From contig JAUIJL010000008.1 in the NCBI GenBank assembly GCA_030431255.1, forward strand, positions 1 to 64,000: a stretch of 64,000 nucleotides of DNA, in the 5' to 3' direction. Below are positions 12,020-19,500 of the stretch, in pieces. Every line of letters begins with the position of its first letter. The first letter of the stretch is position 1. The notes beneath the pieces are model-generated. The model did no database searches, was not told the DNA's origin, and saw only the letters and a program-made list of their open reading frames with translations. This DNA is from Thermoanaerobaculia bacterium. Lineage in GTDB: Bacteria; Acidobacteriota; Thermoanaerobaculia; Multivoradales; J023. Both the position numbers and the translations under genes were made by a program.

Positions 12020-15000
12020 CTAATCGCGAGTCGATTTTTTTCGCGCGGGCTCGATCAACACGGGTCGGGAGAGGCTCCAGGCGGCCTGAGTGACGACGGT
12101 GAGGCGGGCCGGTCCGGGGGGCAGGGTGTGGACGGGAAGGGTGTGGAAGGTGGTGGCGCTCCAACCGACGGCGGGGTCGGCGGGCAGGTAGAGCCGGCGA
12201 CCGTCGACTTGGCTGCGCAGATGGACGAGGGGATGGTCGGACGGGCAGTCTTGCCCACCGAGCCCGCCCGAGCCGGCCGACACGGCGCGGAACCCGCGAC
12301 CCTTGAGCACGATCGGCTCTCCGAGAGCGGCCGATTCGGGCCATTCGGTGATCGTAGGACGCGGGATCGACGCGAGATCCGGGCGCGGCTCGATGCGCCG
12401 CGTGATGTCGCCGACCACGAAGAGGCTGCCGTCGGCGAGCAGCACGGCGGCGGGCTCGATCCGCGACTTGGCGAGCTCCGGCCCGCGCCGCCAGAGCTTA
12501 CGACCCGCCTGGAGCACCTCGGTCACGCCGACCGGACCGTCGACACCCCGGCCCCCGGCCACCAGCACCCGACCGTCGGCGAGCCGCGTGGCGGACGGGC
12601 GGGAGCGCGCGACCTCCAGGCGACCGAGCGGCTGGCAGTCGTTGATGTGGCAGGCTTCGACGCTCGCCAGCGGAACGTCGGCCTGGCCGCCGATGACCAA
12701 TATCCGCACCAGGTCGAGGTCGGGCTCGATCCAGGGCAGCACCGCGTGGTGGGCGCGAGCGTCGAACAGCCGCCCCTGGGTGGCGACCGGCTCGAGGGCG
12801 GCGTCGAAGACCTCGAAACGATCGAGCGGCTCGCCGTCTGTGTCGAGACCTCCGACCAGCCACAGCCCGCCGTCGGGCAAGGCGATCGCACCGTGATGGA
12901 CCCTGGCTTCGGCGAGCGGCGTTGCCGGCGTCCAGCGATGGGACGGTAGGTCGTAGACCTCTTGGTCGGCCAGGGCCACGCCGTCGGTGTCGACACCGCC
13001 CGACACCACTGCTCGACCATCCACCAGGCGCGTGACCGTGTGGCCGGCGCGGGCGGTGCCGAGGGGCGCTGCCGCCGCCCAGCGGTCGGTCCTGGGATCG
13101 AAGATCGCGGCCCGCGCCGTGGGCCGACCGGCGGCGTCACGGCCACCGACCCAGAGCAAGCGACCGTCCGCGAGCCATGCCACGCCGCCGCCGGAACGTG
13201 GCTCCGGAGGCGAGGACGCTCGCTGCCGGCGATCGGACGCTGGATCGTAAATCCAGGGCTCCGGGACACCGACCACGAGCACGCGATTGTCGGGCAAGAG
13301 CGCGGCCCGCGGCATACCAGCGAGCGATCTGGGAGGGCTCGCGGGCATCGCGATGGGAGGGCCGCGCGGGTCGAGCAGCTCGGCCGAGCCGAGGGAGCTG
13401 CGCGTCTCCTCGCCCTCGCCACCGGCGATCAGCACCCGCCCGTCGGGCAGGAGCGTCGCTGTGTGACGCAGGCGCGCGTGCTCGAGATCGGGCGCCGCCG
13501 ACCACTGGTCGCGATCCGGATCGTAGAGCTCGACGCTCGCCAACCGCCCGTTCGAGTTGCCGCCGGCGACTACCACGCGCCCGTCGGCGAGCAACGTGGC
13601 CGTGTGGCGATTGCGGGCCTGCGCCATGGGCGCGGCAGGGGTCCATCGGTCGTCGGCCGGATCGTAGAGCTCGACGCTCACCACGCCGCCGGAGTCGTCA
13701 CCTCCCGCCACCAGAACGCGGTGGTCGCGCAGCAGTGTCGCGCTGTGTAGCCAACGCCCGCGCATGAGCGAGGCGGCGGAGGTCCATCGGTCGTCGGCCG
13801 GATCGTAAAGCTCGGCGGACCCATGCTGCTTTCGGCCCGCGGACCGGCCGCCGACGACGAGCACCCGTCCGTCGGCGAGACGGGTCGCGGTCGGGTTGTA
13901 CCGCTCCACCGAGAGGTCACCGATCGGGCGCCAGGTGTCGGCCGCCGGGTCGTAGAGCTCAGTCGACCGAGTCGGCCCGCCGGCCACGAGGATTCGCCCG
14001 TCGAGCAGAACTGTCGCGGCGAAGCTGTGGCGTGGCGTGAGCAGGCCGGCGAGGGGCTGCCAGACGTGGGATCCGGGATCCAGGATTTCGACGCCGGCCA
14101 TGCGCGACCCCACCTTTTCGCCGCCCACGGCCAGCGGCCGCCCGTCGCGCGAGAGAACGGCGACGTGCAGATCCCTGATCTCGGCCATATCGGGCAGAGC
14201 ACGCCAGGTGTCGAGCTCCGGGAAATAGACCTCGGCCGCGGCCAGCCGGATGCTCAAAAACGGTTCCCAGGTGGTGCCACCGGTGACCAGAACCCGCCCG
14301 TCTTGAAGCAGGGTGGCGGCGTGGCGCACTCGGCGGGTGGTCATGGGTGCGGCCCATGCTCGCTCGAGCGGCGGCGGGATCGCGGACGAAGCGGTCGGAG
14401 CCTGACGCTCCGGTAGCCGGCGGTCGGAGGTCGGGCCGAAACCTCCGCCGGCCATCACGAGGGCGAGACCGATAACGCCTAAGCCGGCAGCGCCTAAGCC
14501 GGCCGCGCCTAGGCCGGCAGCGCCTAGGCCGGCAGCGCCTAAGCCGGCCGCGCCTAGGCTGGCCGCGCGGCTTGAGACACGACGGAAGAACGGCGATCCG
14601 TCGCCACGCAAGGCCCGGCGCAGGGCCCGGCCGTCCGCGGGACGGTGCTTCGGATCCTTGGCTAGGCACGCCAGCACGAGGCGTTCGAGGGAGGGTGACA
14701 CGGCCACGCCGCGCCGCCGCGGTGGCACTGGCTCCTCGTGGAGCACGGCGCGGAGCACGGTGTGGGTCGCGCCTTCGAAGGGCGCCGCGCCGACCAGGCA
14801 CTCATAGAGCACGGCGCCGAGGGAGTAGACGTCGCTCCGCCCGTCCACGGCGTGGCCGGAAACCTGCTCCGGGCTCATGTAAGTGGGTGTGCCGATCAGC
14901 GTCCCCGCTCCGGTGAGCCGCGGGTCGTCGAGCGAGCGCGCCAAGCCGAAGTCCATCATTCGCGCGACGGGACCGCTCGGTGTCTCGGTGATCATCAGAT

Positions 15001-15592
15001 TCTCGGGTTTGATGTCGCGATGCACGACGCCGAGCCCGTGGCTGTGTCCGAGGGCATCGGCGATCTGCTCGACGATCGACAAGGCTTCGGCTTCCGGCAA
15101 CGGTCCGCGAGCGAGCCGGGCTCGCAGGGTCTCGCCCCGCACCCTCGGCATGACCAGGAAGAGCCGACCAGCGTCGACCCCGTGGTCGAAAATAGGCACG
15201 ATGCCGGGATGATCGAGACGCGCGGCGAGCCGGGCCTCGCGGCGGAAACGCTCGGCCATGTCCAGGGCCAGGGGATGGGCGGCCAGCAGCTTCACGGCCA
15301 CCGTCCGCTCGAGGCGCCGATCGACGGCCTCGTAAACCACGGCCATGCCGCCTTGACCGATTTCGCGGATCAGCTCGTAGCGCTCGGCGAGCACGGCGCC
15401 GAGGGCCGTCGAGGCCCAGGGCGGGGTGTCGAGAAAGTCGTCGGCTTCGTCGACGCGGGCGAGCAGCGAGCCGACCTCTCTCCGCAGCTCGGAGTCCTCG
15501 ACCTGCTCAATGAATCGCGGCCTCGACTCTCCCCGAAGCTCCAAAGCCCGCCGGAAGATCGACCGGATTCGCCGCCAGCGTTCAGCGTCCAT
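12020..15592 (-). CDS. Transmembrane Ser/Thr protein kinase with extracytoplasmic Kelch repeats
   Basis: This is a 1190-aa protein. An N-terminal region of ~70 residues is followed by a Hanks-type kinase (~71-335) with Gly loop GQGGMAVVY, Lys in VAVKLL, HRDIKPEN catalytic loop, MDFGLAR and GTPTYMSPEQ. A hydrophobic segment (~345-385) built of LGAAG repeats is the single membrane span. The remaining ~750 residues are Kelch/galactose-oxidase-like repeats ('DGRVLV.GG', 'ELYDP..D.W...', 'ARY.HTATLL'), which form one or more beta-propellers outside. The ECF sigma gene lies 6 bp upstream on the same strand. Kinase and sigma factor probably form one signalling pathway in which the propeller senses an external ligand; the ligand is unknown. 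Confidence 0.9.
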   Translation of the reverse strand: MDAERWRRIRSIFRRALELRGESRPRFIEQVEDSELRREVGSLLARVDEADDFLDTPPWASTALGAVLAERYELIREIGQGGMAVVYEAVDRRLERTVAVKLLAAHPLALDMAERFRREARLAARLDHPGIVPIFDHGVDAGRLFLVMPRVRGETLRARLARGPLPEAEALSIVEQIADALGHSHGLGVVHRDIKPENLMITETPSGPVARMMDFGLARSLDDPRLTGAGTLIGTPTYMSPEQVSGHAVDGRSDVYSLGAVLYECLVGAAPFEGATHTVLRAVLHEEPVPPRRRGVAVSPSLERLVLACLAKDPKHRPADGRALRRALRGDGSPFFRRVSSRAASLGAAGLGAAGLGAAGLGAAGLGAAGLGVIGLALVMAGGGFGPTSDRRLPERQAPTASSAIPPPLERAWAAPMTTRRVRHAATLLQDGRVLVTGGTTWEPFLSIRLAAAEVYFPELDTWRALPDMAEIRDLHVAVLSRDGRPLAVGGEKVGSRMAGVEILDPGSHVWQPLAGLLTPRHSFAATVLLDGRILVAGGPTRSTELYDPAADTWRPIGDLSVERYNPTATRLADGRVLVVGGRSAGRKQHGSAELYDPADDRWTSAASLMRGRWLHSATLLRDHRVLVAGGDDSGGVVSVELYDPADDRWTPAAPMAQARNRHTATLLADGRVVVAGGNSNGRLASVELYDPDRDQWSAAPDLEHARLRHTATLLPDGRVLIAGGEGEETRSSLGSAELLDPRGPPIAMPASPPRSLAGMPRAALLPDNRVLVVGVPEPWIYDPASDRRQRASSPPEPRSGGGVAWLADGRLLWVGGRDAAGRPTARAAIFDPRTDRWAAAAPLGTARAGHTVTRLVDGRAVVSGGVDTDGVALADQEVYDLPSHRWTPATPLAEARVHHGAIALPDGGLWLVGGLDTDGEPLDRFEVFDAALEPVATQGRLFDARAHHAVLPWIEPDLDLVRILVIGGQADVPLASVEACHINDCQPLGRLEVARSRPSATRLADGRVLVAGGRGVDGPVGVTEVLQAGRKLWRRGPELAKSRIEPAAVLLADGSLFVVGDITRRIEPRPDLASIPRPTITEWPESAALGEPIVLKGRGFRAVSAGSGGLGGQDCPSDHPLVHLRSQVDGRRLYLPADPAVGWSATTFHTLPVHTLPPGPARLTVVTQAAWSLSRPVLIEPARKKSTRD
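14477..14566 (-). repeat. Six 15-bp tandem units coding the LGAAG membrane segment
   Basis: Six consecutive 15-bp units of the type gcctaRgccggcMgc encode the LGAAG repeats of the kinase membrane span. Units differ by one to three bases. Copy-number change would keep the frame and alter the length of the transmembrane helix. Confidence 0.85.
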
Positions 15593-16475: not shown

Positions 16476-17840
16476 GTGAATCCTTCAACCTCAGAAGCTC
16501 CGCCCGAGCGACCGACCCGCGGAGCGGTGGTTTACGGCATCCACGACAAACTGCCGATGCTCGAGCGCATCCCCCTGGGTGCCCAGCATTTGGTGGCCAT
16601 GTTGTTGGGCAACATCACGCCGCCGCTGTTGATCGCCGGTGGATTGGGCCTGGTGGCTGGGGAAACGGCCTTCTTGCTGCAAATGGCGCTGATCATGGCG
16701 GGCGTCTCGACGATCGTGCAGGCTTACCCCATCGGACCGATCGGCGGGCGTTTGCCGATCGTCATGGGCACCACCATCGCGTTCGTCGGCGCGTCCATCG
16801 CCACGGGCAAGCAATTCGGCCTCGGCGCGGTCTTCGGCGCGTGCCTGGTGGCGTCGTTGGTGGAGATCGCGTTGGGTTTTTCCATCACTCGCCTAAAAAA
16901 GCTTTTTCCGCCCCTGGTCAACGGCGTGGTGGTGATGTTGATCGGTTTGACCCTCATTCCCGTGGGCATGGATTACGCCGCAGGCGGTCCCGGGGCCGCG
17001 GACTACGGCGCGTTTCACCATTTGGCCATCGCCGCCTTGGTCTTCGTTCTGACCCTTTTCCTGAATCAATTCGGCCGCGGTATTTGGGCCTACGGCAGCA
17101 TGTTGGTGGGGGTGATCGCCGGCTACGTCGTCGCGATCGCCATGGGTTTGGTGGATTTCCACTTGGTGGCGGAGGCCGGCTGGTTGGAGCTGCCCCGTCC
17201 CCTACCCTACTCCCTCGAATTCCACCTCGTGCCGATCGTGTTGATGTCGCTGGTTTACGTGATCACCACCATGGAGACCTTGGGGGATATCTCCGGCACG
17301 GTAGCGGTGGAAGGCCGCACCCCCACGGACGACGAGCTGCGCGGCGGTCTGGTGGCGGACGGCGTGATGAGTGGTTTCGCCTCCCTCTTCGGCGCCTTCC
17401 CCAATACGTCCTACTCCCAGAATGTCGGCCTGGTGAATTTTTCCGGAGTCGCCAGCCGACACGTCACCGCGGTGGCGGGTATGTTGTTGATCCTGCTCGG
17501 ACTAGTGCCGAAAGTAGGCGCCTTCTTCGCCACCATCCCACCGGCGGTGATCGGCGGCGGTGGATTGATCATGTTCGCCATGATCTTCGCCAGCGGACAG
17601 GCCATCGTGCACCGTCAAGTGGAGCTCGACCGTCGCAACATGATCATCCTGGCGGTGGCCATCGGCCTGGGGCTCGGATGCGAGCTGCGCAAAGACGTGC
17701 TCCAGAACCTACCGGAGATGCTTCAGACCCTGCTCGGCTCAGGTCTGGTGACCGGCGGATTCACGGCTTTGTTGCTCAATTTGGTGTTGCCCGAGCAGAC
17801 ATCAACTCTCACCTCGGACGAATCCGAGCCAACCCTTTGA
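16476..17840 (+). CDS. NCS2-family nucleobase permease
   Basis: This 454-aa integral membrane protein starts at a GTG (the ATG just upstream is out of frame and closes at once). The hydrophobic profile is that of a 14-helix NCS2 (xanthine/uracil) transporter: GAQHLVAMLLGNITPPLLIA at the start, the family signature SQNVGLVNFSGVASRHVTA in the middle, and a Gly-rich IPPAVIGGGGLIMFAMIFASG segment. These carriers import purines, pyrimidines or related heterocycles with protons or sodium. The selenoprotein gene begins 29 bp after its stop on the same strand, so the three genes 16476-19500 form a probable operon. Substrate undetermined. Confidence 0.9.
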   Translation: MNPSTSEAPPERPTRGAVVYGIHDKLPMLERIPLGAQHLVAMLLGNITPPLLIAGGLGLVAGETAFLLQMALIMAGVSTIVQAYPIGPIGGRLPIVMGTTIAFVGASIATGKQFGLGAVFGACLVASLVEIALGFSITRLKKLFPPLVNGVVVMLIGLTLIPVGMDYAAGGPGAADYGAFHHLAIAALVFVLTLFLNQFGRGIWAYGSMLVGVIAGYVVAIAMGLVDFHLVAEAGWLELPRPLPYSLEFHLVPIVLMSLVYVITTMETLGDISGTVAVEGRTPTDDELRGGLVADGVMSGFASLFGAFPNTSYSQNVGLVNFSGVASRHVTAVAGMLLILLGLVPKVGAFFATIPPAVIGGGGLIMFAMIFASGQAIVHRQVELDRRNMIILAVAIGLGLGCELRKDVLQNLPEMLQTLLGSGLVTGGFTALLLNLVLPEQTSTLTSDESEPTL

Positions 17841-17869
17841 CGAGCGCTCCTTCAAAAGAAAGGTATTCG

Positions 17870-18430
17870 ATGATCGAATTTCACAATCCAGAAGCGGATG
17901 TCGCGGTAAAAACCATCCCCTACGAGTCGGCGGTGCCGATTCGCGGCAAAACCGTGGAAATCGGTTTGCTGGCCAATGGATTCCCGGATTCGGAGACTTT
18001 CCTCGGCCATCTCGCCGAAGCCCTGGGGCGCTTGGAGCCCGGCATTCGAGTGAGCAGCTTCAATAAGGGCAATCCGACTATTCCCGCGGGCGAAAGTCTG
18101 TTGAACGAGCTGAAGTCACGCTGCGCCGGGGTGGTCGCGGCGTACGGGCATTGAGGGTCTTGCACCACCGGCACCGTGCGTGACGGATACAACCTAGCCC
18201 TCCTCGGAATACCCGCGGTCGCCTTGGTGACCGAAGAATTTAGTCCCCAGGGCGATTTCGTAGCTCAATCTTTGGGCATGCCGGATTTGCCCCGGGTTCA
18301 GCTGCCCCACCCGGTGGCGGGCACCGGCGAGCAGCGCATGCGGACAATCGCCGCCGAGGTCGCCCCTCGGATCATCGACGCCCTGGAATCCACAGAGTCG
18401 AAATCTTCAGCCCAGGAGCCGACATCGTGA
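17870..18430 (+). CDS. UGSC-family selenoprotein, in-frame TGA read as selenocysteine (Sec95)
   Basis: ATG at 17870 with AAAGG 8 bp upstream. The frame reads to a TGA at 18152-18154, and the same frame continues without another stop to TGA 18428-18430, giving 186 residues. The residues after the TGA are G-S-C, so the product reads ...AAYGH-U-G-S-C-TTGTVRDGYNLALLG.... This is the defining U-G-S-C motif of the UGSC (seleno)protein family, and the downstream part (IPAVALVTEEF, LPRVQLPHPV) keeps the family pattern, so the TGA is a recoded Sec rather than a broken gene. Gene callers would split it into 17870-18154 and 18176-18430. A thiol/selenol redox role is likely but the reaction is unknown. 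It overlaps the next gene by 4 bp. No selA, selB or selC is in the window. Confidence 0.88.
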
Positions 18431-19500
18431 CCGACCTGCTCACCGCGGTGGACGAGACCGTCGCTTTGGAAGAGCTGCACGCCCGCGGCTGTACCGACGG
18501 ATTGCCGGTGGTCATCCCGACCCCGGAGCGGGTGGAGCCTATGGTGTTGGCCTCGGGCCACGATGCGGACATGGTGCTCGGCACCATGGGTCCCGGCAAC
18601 GGCATCGCCACCATCGAGAAGGTGGCGGTGGCGGCGGTGATGGCCGGCTGTCTTCCGGATTACATGCCTTTGGTGGTGGCGGCGGTCAAGGCCGTGATCG
18701 CGCCCGTGTTCGACCTCACCGAGATGCAGGCCACCACCCACTGCACCGCTCCCCTGATGATCGTCAATGGACCGGCCCGTCACATCTGCGGACCGGTGGC
18801 CAGCGGCTACGGCGCCCTCGGTCCGGGCCACCGAGCCAACGCGTCCATCGGCCGGGCCTTGCGGTTGACCATGATCAACATCGGCAAGGGGCGTCCCGGG
18901 GTCTCGGACATGGCGCTCCTGGGTCATCCCGGCAAATTCACCTATTGTTTGGCGGAAGATGAGGAGAACAGCCCCCTGGCGCCGCTCCATGTGGACCTCG
19001 GATTCGAGCCTGACGATAGCGTGGTGACAGTGGTCGGCGCGGAGGCGCCCCACTCGGTGATCTTCAGCGGCAATGGGGACGATCCGCGGGCCTACGGCAT
19101 TCTGCTCGATATGTTAGCCATCGGCCTTGCCAATCCAGCGACCAACAATGCCGTGCTCACTTCCGGAACCGGGGTGGTCGTGCTCAATCCGGACCACGCC
19201 GCGGTGCTCGCCAAAGCAGGTCTGAATCGAAGGGATATCGCCGAGGAGCTGTGCCGTCGATGCGTGATGGCTCCGGAGCTACAAACCCGTTTGATGCCCA
19301 CCATGGTGGGGCCCAATCCCGAGCCGAGACCGGCGTTCACAGATCCGTCACAGATCTTGATCCTCATGGCCGGCGGCAACGGCCTCTACTCCATGGTCAT
19401 GCCGTCGTGGAGCACCGGCACCCACAAAAACTCACCGTCGTCGGTGAAGGTCGAGATCGGTTTTTCCTGCGAGATTCCGGGGCTCAGCCCCGGCGGATAG
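18427..19500 (+). CDS. Conserved-looking partner of UGSC selenoprotein, unknown function
   Basis: This 357-aa soluble protein starts at a GTG overlapping the selenoprotein stop (GTGA), which implies translational coupling. The N-terminus reads ALEELHARGCTDGLPVVIPT; Gly-rich stretches (MGPGNGIATIEKVAVAAVMAG, ILILMAGGNGLYSMVMPSW) and several Cys (GCLPDYMP, THCTAPL, RHICGP, CRRCVM) are notable. There is no signal peptide or TM segment. I cannot name a family with certainty. My recollection is that a protein of this kind neighbours UGSC genes in other genomes; that is memory, not something checked here. The Cys residues and linkage suggest a joint redox or organosulfur/organoselenium function. 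Confidence 0.7.
   Translation: MTDLLTAVDETVALEELHARGCTDGLPVVIPTPERVEPMVLASGHDADMVLGTMGPGNGIATIEKVAVAAVMAGCLPDYMPLVVAAVKAVIAPVFDLTEMQATTHCTAPLMIVNGPARHICGPVASGYGALGPGHRANASIGRALRLTMINIGKGRPGVSDMALLGHPGKFTYCLAEDEENSPLAPLHVDLGFEPDDSVVTVVGAEAPHSVIFSGNGDDPRAYGILLDMLAIGLANPATNNAVLTSGTGVVVLNPDHAAVLAKAGLNRRDIAEELCRRCVMAPELQTRLMPTMVGPNPEPRPAFTDPSQILILMAGGNGLYSMVMPSWSTGTHKNSPSSVKVEIGFSCEIPGLSPGG

Follow-up and report, generated by a model that had tools for sequence, protein, structure and literature searches.

A gene that seems to be truncated by a stop codon in a Thermoanaerobaculia bacterium almost certainly encodes, to judge from its sequence and its relatives, one intact selenium-containing protein of the UGSC family, a family that is known but uncharacterised. 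Together with the gene that follows it, here called the partner, it very probably forms a functional unit. Leaving the chemistry aside, we regard the joint statement, that the protein is a selenoprotein and that it works as a unit with its partner, as quite likely. Both genes lie in the window, by which we mean the whole stretch of 64,000 nucleotides that was analysed (Table 1).

The reading frame of the UGSC gene runs from an ATG at 17870 through the sequence H-U-G-S-C, in which codon 95 is TGA, and continues for 91 more codons to a second TGA, a stop overlapping the GTG with which the partner gene begins at 18427. A preliminary description of this DNA had placed the first TGA exactly at the U of a U-G-S-C motif, with 91 codons of family-like sequence behind it and a stop overlapping the next gene, and our reading of the frame confirms it on each of these points. 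The U/C-G-S-C motif stands in frame, and the Pfam family PF24696 ('UGSC'), which has a single occurrence in the host genome (G000), spans the TGA, matching residues 23-173 (151 residues) with an E value of 3.1e-38 and 132 bits against a cut-off of 25. The NCBIfam equivalog NF041046 (UGSC family (seleno)protein) matches residues 29-172 with an E value of 3.3e-30, and its 105 bits fall below the curated cut-off of 125, so that automatic naming of the protein may fail. The sole other Pfam row was PF20348 (DUF6643; E 0.0016, 19.4 bits), below its cut-off of 27, and a search of PDB sequences with the UGSC profile gave no convincing match (best E 0.14). As the preliminary description had also foreseen, mechanical calling of open reading frames yields two pieces, one ending at 18154 and the other an 84-aa frame at 18176-18430; for automated annotation, the gene is a clean example of stop-codon rules splitting a gene.

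Table 1. Coordinates of the features discussed, with the evidence for each.
Feature	Position	Strand	Details and evidence
NCS2 xanthine-type permease (pbuX)	16476..17840	+	TIGR03173, E 4e-131; ends 29 bp 5' of the UGSC start
Predicted UGSC-family selenoprotein gene	17870..18430	+	186 aa with Sec95; stop codon 18428-18430; frame, family match, relatives, AF2 model
In-frame TGA, predicted U95 of the UGSC motif	18152..18154	+	TGA in 108/108 aligned relatives; Sec machinery of the same genome
SECIS-like element CCGGCACCGTGCGTGACGG	18168..18186	+	Candidate hairpin, 3 + 3 bp with a G.A mismatch in between and CGUGC as the loop
Partner gene	18427..19500	+	357 aa; GTG start overlaps the UGSC stop; downstream of UGSC in 80/80 close loci; co-occurrence

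The TGA is shared by the relatives of the gene. Aligning the family at the U position, as the preliminary description had proposed, we found TGA in all 108 alignable relatives out of 109 loci, with the motif reading UGSC in 106 of them and USSC in two. The remaining locus (L023) had no UGSC match at the cut-off used and is absent from this count; a family search gives one in-frame TGA there too. The relatives were collected in two sets. A scan of genomes by contig supplied the close set, which consists of the best 80 of 104 confirmed relatives (L050-L129). Their identity to the window protein is 47-67%; they are mostly gammaproteobacterial MAGs, and the 80 loci are not independent. The distant set stems from a scan of 396 genomes of the phylum, 40 of which have UGSC, and it comprises 29 further loci (L021-L049). 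It should be noted that the peptide pattern behind the close set had Cys at the U position, and the search therefore could not favour TGA. Some UGSC matches of the phylum scan have no in-frame stop. None of the 80 close relatives ends at this TGA; their frames stay open for 79-102 codons beyond it. A true nonsense mutation in an ordinary gene, whether as a pseudogene or as a sequencing error, would likewise look like a single in-frame TGA, and has virtually no chance of being the explanation here: it is refuted by the presence of TGA at the same codon in every aligned relative, and it also runs against the frozen SECIS-like codons described below, the intact downstream frame and overlapping next gene, and the Sec machinery of the host.

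The host genome (10,192,622 bases, or 10.19 Mb, in 54 contigs; completeness 98.83) carries the genes for this machinery. The search for selA, selB, selC and selD that had been suggested found all of them above their cut-offs: tRNA-Sec at 72.7 bits (cut-off 47), which ARAGORN also reports as tRNA-SeC with anticodon tca, selA at 458.7 bits (cut-off 268), selB at 358.7 bits (cut-off 242) and selD at 359.6 bits (cut-off 125). Among 14 well-known control genomes, five pass the cut-off for tRNA-Sec, two that for selB, one that for selA and two that for selD. The tRNA-Sec model alone is thus the least specific of the four, and SelA, SelB and SelD carry more weight than the tRNA score. The host selD gene (L018, G000:C48:70921-71844) contains one in-frame TGA, read as C-G-U; it is probably itself a selenoprotein gene, so that the host probably has at least one further selenoprotein. 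The claim that this organism uses selenocysteine is therefore supported, both by the machinery and by the SECIS-like frozen codons, and we infer that the UGA of the UGSC gene is decoded as selenocysteine. Homology search alone does not tell which residue is inserted, and the UGA could in principle be read as something else, through suppression by Trp or Cys or through recoding of the whole genome. This is very improbable, given the tRNA-Sec with its tca anticodon, the SelA, SelB and SelD genes, following residues that fit U-x-x-C and the frozen SECIS-like stretch; moreover, the UGA that closes the frame itself overlaps the start of the next gene and apparently serves as an ordinary stop there.

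Selection acts on the RNA sequence just 3' of the UGA, as expected of a SECIS element. We compared codon use in the window gene and its 80 close relatives at 56 columns in which one residue is common to at least 73 of the 81 sequences (Met, Trp and TGA were left out). Codons +5 to +10 after the UGA (ACC GGC ACC GTG CGT GAC) are frozen: codon +5 is a single codon in 74 of the 75 sequences with Thr, and each of codons +6 to +10 is the same in 81/81 (98.7-100% overall). At the remaining 50 columns, the commonest codon accounts for 28-85% of the sequences. The element CCGGCACCGTGCGTGACGG is identical in 81/81 sequences at 18 of its 19 positions and in 80/81 at the other one. It can pair as CCG-g-CAC [CGUGC] GUG-a-CGG, with a distance of 20 nt from the UGA to the loop, and if it does so its loop CGUGC would agree with the bacterial SECIS, described in the available text of PMC1088965 as a stem-loop with a small apical loop containing a guanosine. 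Support for a SECIS is drawn here from the freezing of codons, because folding of the 65-nt region is unsupportive (energy z +0.94; 167 of 200 shuffles fold equally well or better); the predicted pairing of the window sequence also varies with the length folded. Since the hairpin is invariant in the close subfamily, no covariation is visible there. In distant subfamilies, a hairpin of another kind occupies almost this position: with the stem taken from one of 17 distinct sequences, all 17 form at least 6 of 9 pairs (background, 136 of 1064 windows in the same genes), the loop starts with GU in 15 of them, and L026 swaps a C-G pair for G-C. An Rfam search of 17600-18700 returned two chance rows alone (mir-598 and HOTTIP_3), which lie far below their cut-offs and were rejected.

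All 80 close loci have the partner immediately 3' of the UGSC gene and in the same orientation; it is fragmented in L070, and in L101, L106 and L122 the contig ends within it. By identity to the window proteins, it is better conserved than UGSC itself, with 58-78% (60 rows) compared with 47-67% for UGSC (61 rows). Among the 29 distant loci, the partner is found within flanks of 1.5 kb in 16 and is missing from the flanks in 13, of which 12 are copies in genus g4; in genomes of that genus, another UGSC copy stands next to a partner, or a further partner gene lies elsewhere. The gene order also varies, with the partner first in L204, L205 and L206 and divergent in L202, and L203 has no partner within 7 kb of UGSC. 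Across the 396 genomes of the phylum, UGSC occurs in 40, the partner in 39 and both in 38, each gene being present in 17 of 210 genera, a count that relatedness inflates. The one-sided genomes are two with a weak partial UGSC match alone (G134, G151) and one with a piece of the partner alone, at a contig end (G121). In-frame TGAs within distant partner genes (L180, L183, L184, L188, L190, L191) were dismissed as natural stops. The preliminary description had left out both this conserved pairing of UGSC with the next gene and the long-known status of the family (PMC2398784).

Family searches with the partner gave no Pfam match at E up to 10 (HMMER filters drop many weak matches) and no NCBIfam match at 0.001. 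Nor did a convincing solved relative emerge: by sequence, the best PDB row had an E value of 0.02, with unrelated names among the hits, and by fold the best rows reached a Foldseek E value of 0.96 and a VIA Z of 6.0 over 83 residues. Two candidate folds, Toblerone (Z 5.4, rmsd 6.8, 150 aligned) and fumarate hydratase (Z 4.9, rmsd 5.5, 193 aligned), were discarded as lying at noise level.

On the other side of the UGSC gene, the xanthine-type permease is possibly co-transcribed with it. The short gap of 29 bp on the same strand, together with the TIGR03173 match, could suggest that the pair serves nucleobase metabolism. We consider this improbable: in the flanks examined of the 109 related loci, tblastn at 1e-5 does not find the permease at any of them, and the neighbours at other UGSC loci are varied, including fumarase, P450 and luciferase-like monooxygenase genes (by Pfam) and CoA-transferase-like and SDR-like genes (by eye). 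The fumarase neighbours (16 loci) and thioredoxin-reductase-like neighbours (14 loci, by eye) come from related MAGs, in sets that overlap, and so seem to reflect inherited synteny. Further upstream in the window, the minus strand at 12020-15592 carries a 1190-aa open reading frame that reads, by eye, as serine/threonine kinase-like in its first part and as kelch-like repeats after it, the two being separated by a GLGAA repeat.

Gene fusions tie the pair together more closely. In genus g60, UGSC and the partner form a single polypeptide, UGSC first, in 8 of 9 copies from three genomes (L048 and L200 in G037, L049 in G250 and L201 in G113:C100); the one separate pair is in L201. Five of the fused copies (three in L200 and two in L201) are without U-x-S-C, Sec and Cys being replaced by Ser or other residues, so it appears that the UGSC fold can exist without the redox pair. 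In the phylum scan, each of the ten g60 genomes carries at least eight UGSC matches. Two fused copies in L200 (G037:C67) begin with a twin-arginine-like stretch (by eye), and one of them has a weak hit to a TAT family. A UGSC/Unknown_1 fusion similar to those of g60, consisting of a UGSC domain and a conserved domain of unknown function, is mentioned in the available text of PMC2398784, and it is our guess that Unknown_1 is the partner described here.

The partner is also joined to a second kind of domain. We scanned 30 of the 41 distant partner open reading frames listed; in 23 of them, spread over six families with g4 dominant, a CPTC motif precedes the partner domain on its N-terminal side. 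Pfam recognises AhpC-TSA in five of the 30 and Thioredoxin_2 in three; L204 and L205 may be compared with these. Since the partner domain is joined to UGSC in one lineage and, in other lineages, to a thioredoxin-like domain, the three are likely to belong to one redox system, and the partner itself probably forms a redox enzyme with UGSC.

A possible clue to the chemistry comes from selenoprotein B. The window UGSC protein and the C-terminal Sec domain of GrdB/PrdB (PF07355) both have U-x-x-C, G-I-P exactly 18 residues past the U, and P-H-P; their identity is about 15-24%, and the N-terminal part of GrdB is absent from UGSC. When a GrdB gene of the phylum (L140) is read through its TGA, it gives U-A-T-C ... 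G-I-P ... P-H-P, and BLASTP of the window protein against it aligns U with U (pairwise E 0.004). Comparison of the UGSC and GrdB family profiles by hhalign again aligns U with U, at a score of 33.7 (P 2.8e-4, probability 41%), or 30.9 (P 7.1e-4, probability 26%) with query and template exchanged. The 71 controls scored lower, with at most 22.6 for 60 column shuffles, 16.4 for the reversed profile and at most 21.1 for ten other profiles. A narrower alignment (A3) against one GrdB sequence reached a probability of 6% and was too weak for use; no solved relative of that GrdB piece was found. PF07355 itself has no match in the window UGSC protein at E up to 10, none in G000 and none in the partner. 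In L140, the PF07355 match stops just before the Sec; the model apparently breaks off at the UGA and may thus be blind to the shared domain. Across L140 and L141-L163, PF07355 matches end just before the Sec codon in many of the genes hit. The phylum of the host also has short GrdB-like open reading frames with U-P-M-C or U-P-N-C motifs. Overall, the similarity of UGSC to the GrdB Sec domain is weak, lies above the controls and is suggestive, and we would give true homology of the two an even chance. No title linking UGSC with PrdB or GrdB was among the literature matches listed.

The predicted structure bears on the same question. An AF2 model of UGSC, built from a 62-row alignment (mean pLDDT 91.7, pTM 0.85), shows by DSSP five strands alternating with helices, with Sec95 lying after the third strand (87-93) and ahead of the helix at 96-111. 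The best Foldseek matches are flavodiiron/flavodoxin-like proteins (E 2.5e-5, TM 0.45, rmsd 5.0), while the VIA rows are CheY-like, lumazine-synthase-like and similar domains. The best of the latter, 8s7v_H (Z 11.0, rmsd 3.8, 134 aligned), was not taken as an informative fold match: a de novo design scores practically as high (Z 10.9), and the match indicates no more than a 'common alpha/beta sandwich'. We therefore model UGSC as having a flavodoxin/CheY-like fold, an assignment that reads the alternation of strands and helices and not the strand order, unlike the thioredoxin-like fold among whose members UGSC is counted in the available text of PMC2398784 and PMC13188914. Those publications, and the fact that UxxC is typical of thioredoxin-like selenoproteins, would favour a different account, in which UGSC is a thiol oxidoreductase with a thioredoxin fold, of the type that handles peroxides, disulfides or methionine sulfoxide, and the partner, instead of being one half of a GrdB-like enzyme, is either an electron donor dedicated to UGSC or its target. 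We think this unlikely, as the model is confident and places the Sec after the third of five alternating strands, and its structural matches are flavodoxin-like, CheY-like and lumazine-synthase-like, thioredoxin chains being absent among the 50 matches listed by Foldseek and by VIA, although matches lower down could hold them.

We propose instead that the U-x-x-C redox pair Sec95-Cys98, placed in a flavodoxin/CheY-like domain where the helix following strand three begins, would be catalytic, and that UGSC and the partner would act together as one redox enzyme, the partner supplying the substrate site or being an intimate reaction partner. The selenolate of the Sec would attack or reduce a substrate held by the two proteins or between them; a Se-S bond with Cys98 would then form and would be reduced by a thioredoxin-like donor. 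In several other families this donor would be the domain to which the partner is fused; in the subfamily of the window, where the partner starts at its own domain, it would be a free thioredoxin. The likeliest chemistry would be that a small molecule is reduced or reductively cleaved, as happens with selenoprotein B of glycine and proline reductase. That the system is a thioredoxin-fed redox enzyme (a selenol reductase) seems to us reasonably probable. Only tentatively do we go further and suggest a two-part selenoenzyme reductase, in which UGSC would be a stand-alone, flavodoxin-like relative of the GrdB/PrdB Sec domain, the partner would provide the substrate site and thioredoxin-like proteins the reducing power. 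We found no earlier description of such a two-part UGSC-partner reductase in the literature text available.

Among relatives of the host, the single further genome of its genus in our sample (G334) is without UGSC, and two of six other genomes of the same family (G397 and G399) have it, at 32-34% identity. The window UGSC is a member of a GHUGSCTTG subfamily, which has a SECIS-like sequence of its own and differs from the (A/G)DUGSC subfamilies that occur in the phylum of the host. In a partner tree, the window partner groups with rows from Halieaceae and other Gammaproteobacteria, in a set of 14 rows with support 99 that includes one Myxococcota record (the tree was made by a quick method and has long outgroup branches); its highest identity is 78% (L065), and it stands far from the G397 copy. 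The simplest reading of these sequences would be horizontal transfer of the UGSC-partner pair.

The UGSC family was in print by 2008 (PMC2398784) and appears in later papers, and the dominance of Sec in it is already known, the GOS data comprising 255 Sec and 21 Cys forms according to the available text of PMC2398784. UGSC proteins are named there and in the accessible part of PMC9402790 as being among the most abundant selenoproteins of marine and other aquatic metagenomes. The window protein shares with the family (PF24696, NF041046; GOS selenoproteome, PMC2398784) the UGSC motif, the position of the Sec and the aquatic relatives. Besides the fusion with Unknown_1, the portions available of the selenoprotein literature on UGSC name neither a function nor a partner. 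Thus, the family itself is known, and the partner and the link to selenoprotein B are leads that may be new; the flavodoxin-like model may in addition correct the published fold assignment. The partner and the thioredoxin-like link give a defined protein pair for expression and assay. If our proposal is true, reductive chemistry of the selenoprotein B type would extend from anaerobic amino-acid fermenters to aquatic bacteria.
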